Translations under genes and position numbers: made by a program
In this document: positions 3,314 through 64,000 of the stretch, piece by piece
How positions within the stretch are numbered: the first letter of the stretch is position 1
Layout: the number at the start of each line of letters is the position of its first letter
Source of the DNA: Tropicibacter alexandrii
GTDB lineage: Bacteria; Pseudomonadota; Alphaproteobacteria; Rhodobacterales; Rhodobacteraceae
DNA length: 64,000 nt
Reading direction: 5' to 3'
Assembly: GCF_003667315.2 (NCBI RefSeq)
Contig: NZ_RCTZ02000005.1
Location: 1-64,000 of the forward strand
The notes under the pieces: generated by a model
The model's input: the letters and a program-made list of their open reading frames with translations, nothing else
Told to the model about the DNA's origin: nothing
The model's database searches: none

Positions 3314-5605
3314 GTGGATATCGGAATGCGGCCGAACGCAGAGAGATGGGTGTTTTCACCGGTGGCCGGGGCCGCCTTGCTGCTGATATTCGCCTGCATG
3401 TCGCTCGTGGTGTCGGTTATCGTGGATTACCGCGTGGCACAGGTGGCGGCGCTGGCGGCGACCGGCACCTTTGGTGCGATTGCCGTGGGCTGGCTGACCT
3501 TCGACATGCTGCAACGCCGCCGCGCGGTGCGCAAACGCGGCCTCGTCGCCGAAATCATCGATCGTGAAACCGCGTTCTGCTTCATCACCGATTCCGAGGG
3601 CGAGATTTTCTACGCCAACCAGACTGCGCGGCAGCGCTTTGCGCCCCGTCCGCAGGCGCATCTGGCAGAGGTGCTGCGCGAGATTTTCGCCAGTTCCGAA
3701 GGCATCCTTTACCGGCTCTACCAAAAGGCGCTGAGCTCCGGTGCGGCCTCCGAGGACATCACCAGCCATGCCGAAGGCTATCGCGTGCAGGTCCGGGTGT
3801 TTTCGCCCCGTCTCGTGCTGTGGCGGTTCGAGGCGGAGATCTCGCGCGGGGCGGTCCCGCGCGAATTGCGCAGCCCGGTCATGTCATTGGGGCGCAACGG
3901 CGCAATCCTGTTCCTGAACGCGGCGGCGCGCGAATTGCTGGGCCAGCGGCCCAAGCGGCTCGAAGAGGTGTTCCTCGATCTGCCCCTGCGCAATGGCGGG
4001 GTGCATCAGCTGACGGTTGGCGATGGCCGCCAGAAGGTGCTTGTCCAGACCAGCGATATCGGCGGTGGCCGTCTCGAAGTGACGCTTGCGCCCCTGCCGG
4101 ATCACAGTGAACAGCCCGAGCCGGGCAGCGGGTTCGAGACCTTGCCGGTGCCGCTGATCAAGGTGTCGCCCGACGGGACGATCCTGCGCGCCAATTCCGA
4201 GGCGCGCCGGATGCTCAACCTGAGCCGCGAAAAGCCCGGCAACCTTGTCGAGCACATGGAAGGGCTGGGCCGCGCCATCAAGGACTGGCTCAAGGAAGCC
4301 GCCGAGGGCCGCGACCTGCACCGCTCCGAATTCCTGCGGCTGACGCGCGAGGATTGCGAGGTCTTCGTGCAGGTCACGCTGAACCGCGTGGTCGAGAATG
4401 GCGTGACTGCACTGGTGGCGGTGCTGAACGACGCGACCGAGTTGAAAACGCTCGAGGCGCAATTCGTCCAAAGCCAGAAGATGCAGGCCATCGGCCAGCT
4501 TGCGGGCGGGGTCGCGCACGACTTCAACAACCTTTTGACCGCGATTTCAGGCCATTGCGACCTGCTCTTGCTGCGCCACGATCAGGGCGACCCCGATTAT
4601 GGCGATCTGGTTCAGATCAACCAGAACGCCAATCGCGCGGCAGCTCTGGTCGGGCAATTGCTGGCCTTTTCACGCAAGCAGACCATGCAGCCCGAGGTCA
4701 TGGACCTGCGCGACACCATGTCGGATCTCGCACATCTGCTGAACCGTCTCGTGGGCGAGAAGGTCCGCCTGACGCTGAAACACGACCCCGTCCTGCCACC
4801 GGTGCGCGGCGACCGCCGTCAGTTGGAGCAGGTCATGATGAACCTCGTGGTCAATGCCCGCGACGCCATGCCCGATGGCGGCGAAATCGTCGTGGAAACC
4901 GAACGCCGCGTGCTGCGCGAACCGCTGACTCGTGATCGGGCGGTGGTGGCGCCGGGGACTTATGTCTCGGTCCGGATCACCGACGAGGGCACGGGCATCC
5001 CCAAGGACAAGCTGCAAAAGGTCTTTGAGCCCTTCTTCACCACGAAGCGCCCGGGCGAGGGCACCGGGCTGGGCCTGTCCACGGTGTACGGCATCGTCAA
5101 GCAGACCGGCGGCTTCATCTTTGTCGACAGCGTGGTGGGGCAGGGCACCTGCTTTACGCTGCTGTTCCCTGCGCATGAGGCGCCCGTCGAAAAGGCCGTT
5201 CCCACGGAGGTGGCGCCGGCGCGCAAGCTGCCGCAGAAAGGCTCCGGGGTCGTGCTTCTGGTGGAGGACGAAGCACCGGTGCGGGCCTTCGCGGCGCGTG
5301 CGCTGCGCTTGCGCGGTTATACCGTGATCGAGGCGGAGACCGCCGAGGATGCGCTGGACAAGCTGGAGGATGCCGACCTGCACGTGGACATCTTCGTGAC
5401 GGACGTGGTGATGCCCGGCATGGACGGACCGACTTGGGTGCGCAAGGCGCGTGAAACGCGGCCTGACACCAATGTGGTCTTCGTGTCCGGCTATGCCGAG
5501 GATGTGTTCGGCGAGGGCAGCGAGGAGATACCGAACTCTGTGTTCCTCGCCAAGCCGTTCTCTCTGTCCGACCTGACTGAAATCGTGCACCAGCAGTTGA
5601 ACTGA
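3314..5605 (+). CDS. cckA: Cell-cycle hybrid histidine kinase CckA
   Basis: This is a membrane hybrid kinase of about 763 residues. Two transmembrane helices near the N-terminus are followed by PAS-like regions. The HisKA dimerisation domain has the H-box [16 protein letters not shown]. The HATPase domain has the N-box [13 protein letters not shown] and [10 protein letters not shown], with [20 protein letters not shown]. The C-terminal receiver carries the phospho-acceptor in [12 protein letters not shown] and a lysine in LAKPF. In alphaproteobacteria CckA feeds the ChpT-CtrA phosphorelay, which controls cell cycle, motility and gene-transfer-agent genes. GTG 3314 is preferred because GGGGGAAG lies just before it; the frame is open up to 3194, inside the upstream gene. 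chpT and ctrA are not in the window. Confidence 0.9.
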
Positions 5606-57766: not shown

Positions 57767-58312
57767 ATGCTGGTTGGCTATGCTCGTACATCAACACTGG
57801 AACAGAAAGCCGGGCTTGAGGCCCAGATAGACGACCTGAAAGCCGCAGGCTGTGAACGGCTGTGGCAGGAACAAACCAGTTCCGTTTCACAAAGAGAGGG
57901 ACTGAGGCAGGCAATGGCATTTTGCCGGGAAGATGACATCTTTGTCGTGACCAAGCTGGATCGTCTGGCCCGGTCCGTCCGTCACCTAGGCGAGATCATC
58001 GAAGAGTTGGACGGCAAGGGCGTTGGCTTGCGCATCCTGAGCCTTGGGTTGGACACGACCACGGCAACGGTCAAGTTGATGCTGAACGTTCTGGGCTCGG
58101 TGGCGCAGTTTGAACGCGAGATGATGCTTGAGAGGCAGCGTGAGGGCATCCAGAAGGCCAAGGCTGACGGGAAGTACAAGGGACGGGCTCCGACTGCCCA
58201 GCGCCTCTCAGGGGAAGCACAGGCGCTCTTGAGGCAAGGTGTGAGCAAGCGGCAGATTGCCCGTGATCTGGGGATATCCGAAAGGTCCGTTCATCGGATC
58301 ACTTCAGCCTGA
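57767..58312 (+). CDS. Serine recombinase (resolvase/invertase family)
   Basis: The 181-residue enzyme has the catalytic serine in LVGYARTSTLEQKAGLEAQ, arginines in TKLDRLARSVRHL, and MMLERQREGIQKAKADGKYKG leading to a C-terminal helix-turn-helix (SKRQIARDLGISERSVHRI). It resembles Tn3/Hin-type small serine recombinases. GAAGGAGG precedes the ATG. A weak inverted pair (GTGTCAGCC at about 57656 and GGCAGACAC at 57712) upstream could be a target but is not convincing. It is the first of two serine recombinases in this island. Confidence 0.92.
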   Translation: MLVGYARTSTLEQKAGLEAQIDDLKAAGCERLWQEQTSSVSQREGLRQAMAFCREDDIFVVTKLDRLARSVRHLGEIIEELDGKGVGLRILSLGLDTTTATVKLMLNVLGSVAQFEREMMLERQREGIQKAKADGKYKGRAPTAQRLSGEAQALLRQGVSKRQIARDLGISERSVHRITSA

Positions 58313-58675
58313 AAAGACGTGTGGTTTGGGCGACGAGACTGGTTCGGCGAACCACAGGTATGCAAAACTATTGTGATAAAAGGGTATGGTGACAAATTTC
58401 GCCGCCACGCGCCTCTGTTTAAAATCAGATGCTTGTATGGCGTTGAAATTTTATGGCGGAGAGACAGGGATACGACTTCAATTTCATAAATCCTATATTT
58501 CTCAGTGGCTTACTGTCTACATGTGGTACATTTTCGCCGATGGTTCAAGACGTACTACATATTGAGCTCTTCAACTATCGACCCGCTGACCACAATCAAG
58601 CGATGTGGCTTCGTGGCTCAGGGTTGCGGTTGACGGGGAGTTATTGCCGAAAGCGACAGTTCAATCTCGCTCACT
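58313..58675. other. 363-bp AT-rich region with no supported gene
   Basis: This lies between the recombinase and the unknown gene on the opposite strand. A 79-codon open frame at 58453-58692 has no homology signal and overlaps the neighbour. The base composition is unlike the chromosome core. Confidence 0.4.
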
Positions 58676-60435: not shown

Positions 60436-60548
60436 TGTCCGATTGGGTTGTGTCCGTTGATATTTATGTCCGATGATGGAAGTCAACCCTTGCGGACACC
60501 CTTTCCGAGTCAATCTGATATGTCCGTTAACCCATACCCCAGCGGACA
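60436..60548. promoter_or_regulatory. Probable res recombination site with TGTCCG motifs
   Basis: Six copies of TGTCCG or its complement CGGACA occur at 60436, 60451, 60467, 60493 (inverted), 60521 and 60543 (inverted). The Tn3/gamma-delta half-site starts TGTCYGATA. The outer pair 60521-60548 spans exactly 28 bp, the length of a Tn3 res site I, and 60467-60498 spans 32 bp. The resolvase start at 60423 is closest to the motifs with site III character, as in Tn3. Confidence 0.75.
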
Positions 60549-61103
60549 AAAGTGAAGAGGCAGGCTGACGAGGTGACAATACCGGGTTGCAGCTTCGGGT
60601 TACCGCTGCTACGCCTAGAGGCAAGGCCACCAATGCAAAGTCGCATAGATCACAAGGCCTTGCGTGAACCTCGACAAGGATACACGCATGTACATCTACA
60701 TCCCCTTCCTCGGCAGTCTCTACGTCCAACGCCTGTCAGCGGCCTTTGCCAATCGCCCTTGCTTCGTTGAGCGGGTAGACCCCGGTGACGGTGGTAGGGA
60801 GTACAACTTGGTGGCCCGACGCTGGGACATTCTGCTGGCCTCTGCGGGCGCTCACAGGGCTGAGCTTAGAAGGGCTCAGTTGCAGATAGGGGAATCCTGC
60901 GCTAAGGAGATTCAGTGCCGCTGTTCCACTTGAACTTGCAGGATTATGCGTCCCGTAAGCCTTTGATCTGCCTGACAGCGTTTTTGGCCAAAGCAACCAG
61001 TAGTTCAGTGGGGACAGCGAAGGTCGGCTATGCGGACTTTGCTGCCATAGCGACGATGAGTTAGCTTGCCGCGACGTGGCACTTTAGTGAATCGAGAGGG
61101 TTG
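60549..61103. other. 555-bp region with a repeat arm and no supported gene
   Basis: Between the res site and the SUKH gene there is only a 31-bp repeat arm at 60877-60907. An open frame from 60664 to 60933 ends inside that arm and is probably not a gene. Confidence 0.45.
60877..60907 (+). repeat. Inverted-repeat arm A flanking the SUKH gene
   Basis: A 31-base arm from CAGTTGCAGATAGGGG to CCTGCGCTAAGG matches, in reverse orientation, 61567-61600. The only difference is a 3-base insertion in the other copy. Together they flank the SUKH gene by about 200 bases on the left and 56 on the right. Confidence 0.7.
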
Positions 61104-61511
61104 ATGCTGGAAGACAAAGACTGGCAAATCGAAGCGGGTGCTACGGAAAGTGAAATTGCGGGTCTGATTGCTGCCTCCGCACATCCCCTGCCTGCTGACT
61201 ATCTATCCTACCTGAACTTTAGTAACGGCGGCGAAGGCCCACTATCGATTGATCCACAATGGCTAGTTTTGGATAATACAGCATTGGTAGCACATTTCTT
61301 GCGCGAAGGCACCTTTGCCGAATTCTTCCCCGGCCTTGTGGTGATCGGAAGCAACGGCGCGGGAGAGGCTATCGCATTTGATTTTCGACAAGGCGTGGCA
61401 AAAGGGGTTGTCTGCTTTGACATGACAAACATTGATTCGACCGAAAGTATTCGACATCTCGCAGCCTCATTTACCGAACTGATGTCTCTTGTGACCTCGC
61501 GAGGGGCATGA
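61104..61511 (+). CDS. SMI1/KNR4 (SUKH) family protein, orphan immunity candidate
   Basis: A 135-residue protein with the SUKH-fold pattern: LEDKDWQIEAGATESEIAGL at the start, HPLPADYLSYLNFSNGGEGP where the family has the conserved PxxYxxFL...NGG, and FFPGLVVIGSNGAGEAIAFD. SUKH proteins often neutralise toxins of contact-dependent or secreted systems, but no toxin gene lies here. GAGAGGG precedes ATG 61104. It is flanked by inverted repeats and followed by a stem-loop. Confidence 0.85.
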   Translation: MLEDKDWQIEAGATESEIAGLIAASAHPLPADYLSYLNFSNGGEGPLSIDPQWLVLDNTALVAHFLREGTFAEFFPGLVVIGSNGAGEAIAFDFRQGVAKGVVCFDMTNIDSTESIRHLAASFTELMSLVTSRGA

Positions 61512-61857
61512 TCCTCCGCTAAGGGCTCACTGCGGTCATTTTCCGCACCGCAGAACCGTGGCGCTACCTTAGCGCAGGATTCCGCCCCTATCTGCAACTG
61601 ACCCCTAGAAGGGTCGCCTCGTGGCCTCTCGACATGGACAACTGAGGCCCCCACACAGCCTTCGCTGGGGCCTGCTGTGGCCTCAGCTCTGGTCGGCACT
61701 GGCAACACCCGGCAGCGCAAAGACGGGCCTTCCTTGCAGCTCTGTGAAGCTGTGTCACCTATGCTCCCCGGCCCCCTGACATGCAGAGGGGGGAAACAGA
61801 AGCGCTCGACCTATATGGTAAGCCGCTCAGATATTTGCGCCGTGAAAATGGCCGGGT
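61512..61857. other. 346-bp region with repeat arm and stem-loop
   Basis: This holds repeat arm B (61567-61600) and an imperfect stem-loop starting TGAGGCC (61643) and ending GGCCTCA (61685). No gene is supported. Confidence 0.5.
61567..61600 (-). repeat. Inverted-repeat arm B flanking the SUKH gene
   Basis: The reverse complement reads CAGTTGCAGATAGGGG, then CGG, then AATCCTGCGCTAAGG. It pairs with arm A at 60877-60907. It may be a dispersed repeat copied in both orientations rather than a transposon end. Confidence 0.7.
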
Positions 61858-63353: not shown

Positions 63354-64000
63354 TCAGAACGCTTCTAGGTAGCCTGCCTTGCGCAGGGCCTCCCAGACTG
63401 CCTGCTGTGCCTCCCTGAGGTTCTCCTCGGTCAGCCCGTGGTCGTATACGCTGGCAGAGTTGGCCTCTGCTGCCCAGCCACCAAGCTCGTAGATGCGATC
63501 CTCAGGGACACCGCCCCGTCGGGCCATCGTGCGCCACGTGTGCCTGAACGAATGCATGGCCAGCTTGCCGTCGGTCTCTGTGCCGAGCGTGGCTCTGCGA
63601 TATCGGGTGAACCACTGCGACACCGAGTTGGCTTTCTGCGTCGTCGGTTTCAGGGGCCACTCTGGGAACAATCGTCGGTCCTCGGGGCGCATGTCGGCTT
63701 GTGCAGCCTCCGCCAGTCCCATCCTCGCCGCGAGCAAGTCTTGCGCGGCCTCGACCACGGGCACAAAGCGGCGTGCATTGTCCGTCTTGCCCTTTGCGAT
63801 CTGAAACCCTGACGCGTCGGTCTTGACGTGCATCAACTTGAGTGAGCCGATTTCGTCAGCGCGGCATCCTGTGGCCAGTGCGAGCCGGAGGAGGTCCCCC
63901 TGACGCGACCCCCACTGCGGCGATCCGCTGAGTAGCTTGCTGACCTCGTCTGGCTTGAAGGCAGTACGGGTCTCATCCGCCGCACGCTTGCTCGACTTCT
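63354..64000 (-). CDS. Tyrosine-type integrase, 5' truncated by the window edge
   Basis: The frame runs to the right edge, so only the C-terminal catalytic domain (about 215 residues) is visible. Catalytic residues are Arg in LALATGCRADEIGSL, Lys in AKGKTDNARRFVPV, the box MHSFRHTWRTMARRGG, GGWAAEANSASV and Tyr in SVYDHGLTE. It looks intact to its stop at 63354. It belongs to the accessory island and differs from the left-edge integrase. No tRNA or att site was found next to its 3' end. Confidence 0.93.
   Translation of the reverse strand, partial: KSSKRAADETRTAFKPDEVSKLLSGSPQWGSRQGDLLRLALATGCRADEIGSLKLMHVKTDASGFQIAKGKTDNARRFVPVVEAAQDLLAARMGLAEAAQADMRPEDRRLFPEWPLKPTTQKANSVSQWFTRYRRATLGTETDGKLAMHSFRHTWRTMARRGGVPEDRIYELGGWAAEANSASVYDHGLTEENLREAQQAVWEALRKAGYLEAF

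Follow-up and report, generated by a model that had tools for sequence, protein, structure and literature searches.

The 113-bp segment between positions 60436 and 60548 of the window, which is the whole 64,000-nucleotide stretch of DNA analysed here, looks from its sequence like the apparently intact three-subsite res of the adjoining serine resolvase gene. Together, res and resolvase probably constitute the multimer-resolution system of a 6.45-kb element that occupies tRNA-Ser(cga). A res of this kind is already known; what is unusual is the direction of the third binding site. The coordinates of the features are given in Table 1.

Table 1. Features of the res region and of the element carrying it (window positions unless a contig position is indicated)
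Feature	Position	Strand	Remarks
Distal att repeat	58454..58471	+	TGGCGGAGAGACAGGGAT; copy of the tRNA-Ser(cga) 3′ end
Cargo gene, 297 aa	58676..59569	-	within the element; no Pfam, PADLOC or NCBIfam match
Serine resolvase gene, 211 aa	59788..60423	-	Pfam Resolvase 3.8e-28, HTH_7 5.9e-9
Site III, gene-proximal half-site	60436..60449	+	TGTCCGATTGGGTT; head-to-tail with 60451..60464, 15-bp period
Site III, gene-distal half-site	60451..60464	+	TGTCCGTTGATATT; same orientation as its partner
res site II	60467..60498	-	32-bp inverted TGTCCG pair; contains AAGGGTTGAC
res site I	60521..60548	-	28-bp inverted TGTCCG pair; central AT is the predicted crossover point; aligned in relatives as TGTCCGnnAGGGTATACC...CGGACA
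Tn3-type miniature element, in the island	60872..61605		terminal inverted repeats GGGG/GGGC...GCTAAG, near-identical; 5-bp target duplication TAGAA
ParB-like gene, 283 aa	61858..62709	-	weak match to TIGR00180 parB_part, below cut-off; relatives in 5/7 bounded elements
Tyrosine integrase of the element	63354..64000, continues to contig ~64856	-	Pfam Phage_integrase; adjoins tRNA-Ser

The hexamer TGTCCG occurs six times in this segment, each time as a perfect half-site. The copies at 60436–60441, 60451–60456, 60467–60472 and 60521–60526 lie on the plus strand, and those at 60493–60498 and 60543–60548 on the minus strand. When the window was simulated 100 times under a first-order Markov model, no 113-bp stretch contained more than three copies. 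An earlier note on this DNA had described the six half-sites, a 28-bp pair like site I, a 32-bp pair like site II and their location directly upstream of the resolvase start. All of these were recovered: both inverted pairs consist of perfect half-sites, and 12 bp separate the site from the ATG of the resolvase gene (60423, minus strand). That the repeats could be random and not conserved is contradicted by the simulations and by the spacing, which is kept in relatives. Site I is gene-distal, and its centre is 52 bp, about five helical turns, from that of site II. The two half-sites left unexplained in the note form a same-direction pair 15 bp apart adjoining the gene, and by analogy we infer that they are paired as one site III.

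The designation of the region as a Tn3-like res was borne out for sites I and II. As in Tn3 and gamma-delta (PMC9943657), site I is a gene-distal 28-bp inverted pair with a central AT, site II is a longer inverted pair about five turns away with the same centre-to-centre distance of 52 bp, site III adjoins the gene and the resolvase has the same fold. The resemblance between sites IIL and IIIR that was noted for Tn3 is also present here. The designation fails at the third site, which in Tn3 is an inverted pair of about 25 bp, whereas the half-sites in the window and in the family are co-oriented. For site II of Tn3, PMC12217951 cites a length of 34 bp, versus 32 bp here; Tn3 also carries a transposase and this locus does not, and the proteins are only about 30% identical. 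A regulatory site with head-to-tail half-sites is found instead in the res of Sin (PMC2428073), likewise a stand-alone resolvase, whose segment before helix E aligns almost gap-free with that of the present protein. The Sin res, however, comprises 86 bp with two resolvase sites and an HU/IHF site between them, while three resolvase sites are present here and the inverted site II fills the middle. In appearance, sites I and II thus follow the Tn3 res, and the third site, with its head-to-tail half-sites, recalls site II of Sin.

The integrative island SGI1 (gene S027 and its res; PMC12217951) shares with this locus an island-borne serine resolvase, a three-subsite res upstream of it and a 28-bp site I. 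The two differ in size, SGI1 being much the larger, in the integration target, which for SGI1 is trmE, and in the replication module that SGI1 possesses. Box II of SGI1 spans 30 bp as compared with 32 bp here, and box III has been read as a weakly symmetric 25-bp site, in contrast to the two clear head-to-tail half-sites of this res. Multimer removal has been demonstrated for the SGI1 resolvase, and here it is a proposal from sequence. The resolvases of the Methylobacterium nodulans plasmids pMNOD06 and pMNOD07 are about 73% identical to the one studied here and have the same res layout, but these are small plasmids with no annotated integrase; no bench work on their resolvase was found. No open-access paper was found that describes a res of three sites whose site III is head-to-tail, and a prior description is possible in subscription papers.

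The conservation of the site was assessed in 34 loci obtained from one scan, nearly all from Alphaproteobacteria and mostly 69–84% identical. They include one record titled Alteromonadaceae, which is a metagenome-assembled genome, and one partial match at 41% (L037). A scan of 295 same-family genomes added 14 loci (about 5%); L008 is the same locus as L061. The upstream regions align as TGTCCGnnAGGGTATACC...CGGACA for site I and TGTCCGTAAGGGTTGAC...CGGACA for site II, followed by CGGACA and AACCCTTACGGACA. For the analysis of the layout 43 loci were used, with L007, L008, L069, L071 and L073 left out. The loci were fixed on sites I and II alone (site II of 32 or 33 bp, start of site I 49–51 bp upstream), and the half-site word of each locus was then sought downstream of them. 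These loci share the 28/32 spacing as well as the head-to-tail arrangement of the third pair. The site III half-sites peak solely at offsets 10 and 25 and in one orientation, with a mean match of 0.81 and 0.78 as compared with a background of about 0.22; at a threshold of at least five of six letters they are present in 33/43 and 28/43 loci. In the inverted orientation no peak occurs in the site III region of the 43 loci, where the match reaches at most 0.40. Because the loci's own words peak at two offsets in one orientation, the head-to-tail third site is, as far as the aligned loci indicate, a family trait. A recognisable res is absent at at least two relatives (L007 and L069) and doubtful at L073, the most distant one.

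The half-site words also vary together with the protein. Within a locus they agree at 0.725, versus 0.622 (sd 0.005) when the words are dealt out among the loci (45 loci). The recognition helix motif RQ is associated with TGTCCG or close variants, RP with TGCCCA (6 loci), RG with TGGCC (2 loci) and RN with TGTTCA (2 loci). RP, RG and RN each fit one change on the tree of the catalytic domain; the helix classes follow this tree, and the covariation therefore amounts to about three independent joint switches and not to 43 loci. Such joint switches are good evidence that enzyme and site work together. Since the half-site word changes with the recognition helix, the two appear to form a real protein–DNA system.

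The resolvase has the catalytic domain with Ser and Arg and the C-terminal helix-turn-helix of small serine resolvases, as seen from the Pfam matches, the invariant residues and the fold match. Arg9, Asp72, Arg73, Arg76 and the predicted nucleophile Ser11 are invariant in an alignment of 19 sequences, and they sit at known active-site positions. Its sequence relatives in the PDB are the Tn3, Sin and gamma-delta resolvases with nearly equal scores (Tn3 64.2 bits, Sin 62.6 bits). The AlphaFold model (mean pLDDT 80, pTM 0.54) matches gamma-delta, Tn3 and Sin alike, so by structure neither Tn3/gamma-delta nor Sin stands out as the nearest relative. The 211-aa protein is predicted to bind the adjoining res and to catalyse recombination there. 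A phage origin was considered and rejected; no phage relative among the matches listed exceeds about 36% identity.

The earlier note had also placed the site in an island, and the borders of this island could be defined. The tyrosine integrase lies beside tRNA-Ser(cga), which is encoded at contig positions 64884–64973 just outside the window, and an 18-bp direct repeat of the tRNA 3′ end is found at the far end. The other att copy is located at contig positions 64884–64901, past the end of the window. This arrangement is that of a tRNA-targeting element, and the 6.45 kb between the repeats hold res and resolvase. In another genome of this genus, a related integrase likewise occupies this tRNA-Ser, close to the end of a contig (L090, 1–600), so that tRNA-Ser(cga) appears to be a recurrent target. 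A clean empty tRNA-Ser site was not found in relatives, and other relatives differ downstream. Among the genes of the 6.45-kb element, none was recognised as serving replication or transfer.

Six other bounded elements of 4.7–9.5 kb were found at other tRNAs (L060, L061, L063, L064, L067 and L070). Their border repeats are 14–26 bp copies of the tRNA 3′ end. Tyrosine integrase and resolvase are present in all seven bounded elements, a ParB-like gene in five and an RNase H gene in two. The cargo of the other elements includes type I, IIG and II restriction-modification systems, defence-like genes and glycosyltransferases. In a plasmid search the resolvase family was also encountered on large replicons, and two small circular M. 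nodulans plasmids (12.6 and 9.8 kb), which have primase-type genes and no annotated integrase, contain a resolvase of this family with a res of the same layout. The resolvase reading frame of pMNOD07 is interrupted by stops, and the copy on pMNOD03 has no recognisable N-terminus or res.

Efficient recombination by a resolvase requires that two res lie in direct repeat on a single supercoiled molecule (PMC9943657). Because two directly repeated res are needed, the natural substrate would be two copies of the element, as in tandem integrants or dimeric circles. We propose that such multimers, which the element presumably forms, place two directly repeated copies on one DNA molecule, either by tandem integration or as a dimer of the excised circle. 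Once all three sites of each copy are filled by resolvase dimers, the two res would form an interwound synapse, and the exchange of strands at the central AT in site I would split the multimer into monomers. A single chromosomal res would be idle, save for probable binding and autoregulation of the resolvase at its own promoter region. Such autoregulation can be suggested by analogy only, since a simple scan detected no sigma-70 consensus promoter in the res region. For SGI1 it has been shown at the bench that a restored resolution system sped up the loss of multimers (PMC12217951). Several observations count against a role in multimer resolution, namely the lack of a recognised replication or transfer gene in the 6.45 kb, at least two relatives with no recognisable res, and the defects of the pMNOD07 and pMNOD03 copies.

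A variant of multimer resolution is that the system is a plasmid-type maintenance module, which resolves multimers of a plasmid-like replicating stage and not integrated tandems. The two small plasmids with primase-type genes and the same res layout are consistent with it, as are the ParB-like and RNase H genes that accompany the resolvase in some elements. However, no replication gene is recognised in the element studied here, and this variant is considered rather unlikely.

The position of the site directly upstream of the gene and a conserved TTGAC inside site II could also mean that the resolvase is mainly a repressor, of its own promoter or of that of a divergent small ORF beginning at 60688, and that recombination is secondary. 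Tn3 resolvase does autoregulate from res (PMC7157771). This reading is improbable, since it leaves unexplained the conserved 28-bp site I with its core around the central AT and the retention of all catalytic residues, and no consensus promoter was scored.

The miniature element of Table 1 lies about 320 bp from res. It contains a SUKH-family gene (61104–61511) and no transposase, and no further copy of its end sequence is present in the genome. Its proximity and 5-bp duplication, together with the Tn3 resemblance of the resolvase and of sites I and II, could be taken to mean that tnpR and res are the remnant of a Tn3-family transposon that lost tnpA and has no present role. A Tn3-family transposon has TnpA and terminal inverted repeats around tnpR and res, but the repeats of 60872–61605 do not enclose res. 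The earlier note had reported no transposase nearby; this was confirmed and extends to the whole genome (99.96% complete), in which no DDE_Tnp_Tn3 domain is found. Moreover, the res layout and the catalytic residues are kept across many genera, and the resolvase recurs with an integrase, and often with a ParB-like gene, in bounded elements with no transposase among the listed ORFs. It is thus very improbable that the locus is such a remnant.

The same note had suggested that the site may be an active target for DNA excision within the island, and that the genome be searched for a second copy. Two res would be needed for this, and neither an exact pattern search nor blastn revealed a second res in the genome. 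A 33-bp TGTCCG..CGGACA match on contig C15 was rejected as a second res, as it stands alone. Since the genome contains a single res and no Tn3 transposase was detected in it, the suggested excision within the island finds no support; the island itself would be excised by its tyrosine integrase, with the direct repeats of tRNA-Ser as the substrate. Excision or inversion within or between islands through two res is therefore the least probable reading, even with the two resolvase and res copies of Marivivens donghaensis HF1, given the one resolvase copy in every strong-match genome among the 295 genomes of the same family scanned and an integrase with tRNA repeats that accounts for excision. The two copies in M. 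donghaensis HF1 (L012 and L015) are located on different contigs; they show that a pair of res can be present in one genome.

It is conceivable, and only a little short of likely, that the present site represents an undescribed class of res, in which sites I and II follow the Tn3 pattern and site III is head-to-tail as in Sin. Such a class would be widespread in Alphaproteobacteria on very small tRNA-borne islands and small plasmids, and would have undergone natural specificity switches in which all half-sites change with the recognition helix. In PMC2428073 the regulatory sites of Tn3 are described as inverted pairs and Sin site II as head-to-tail, and the hypothesis of its authors is that Tn3 site III takes the role of Sin site II. 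A hybrid res, if true, would bear directly on this proposal. Models of the synapse rest on Tn3/gamma-delta, with inverted regulatory sites, and on Sin, with head-to-tail ones; a natural res with both layouts would allow a test of whether Tn3 site III and Sin site II are equivalent, as suggested. The relatives with switched words (TGTCCG, TGCCCA, TGGCC and TGTTCA) offer a ready natural data set for resolvase specificity. The results also point to a family of minimal islands that keeps a resolution system, several members of which carry restriction-modification or other defence-like cargo.

Just outside the left repeat of the element, positions 57767–58312 encode another small serine recombinase. 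Its best NCBIfam match, below the cut-off, is XisF; with this match and this location, it was rejected as the partner of res. The small ORF divergent from the resolvase gene spans 60688–60933 (MYIYIPFLGSLYVQR...), and its 3′ part runs into the miniature element. A similar ORF (IPFLGRLYAQR) is found beside the res of L036, at 3531–3839 on the minus strand.
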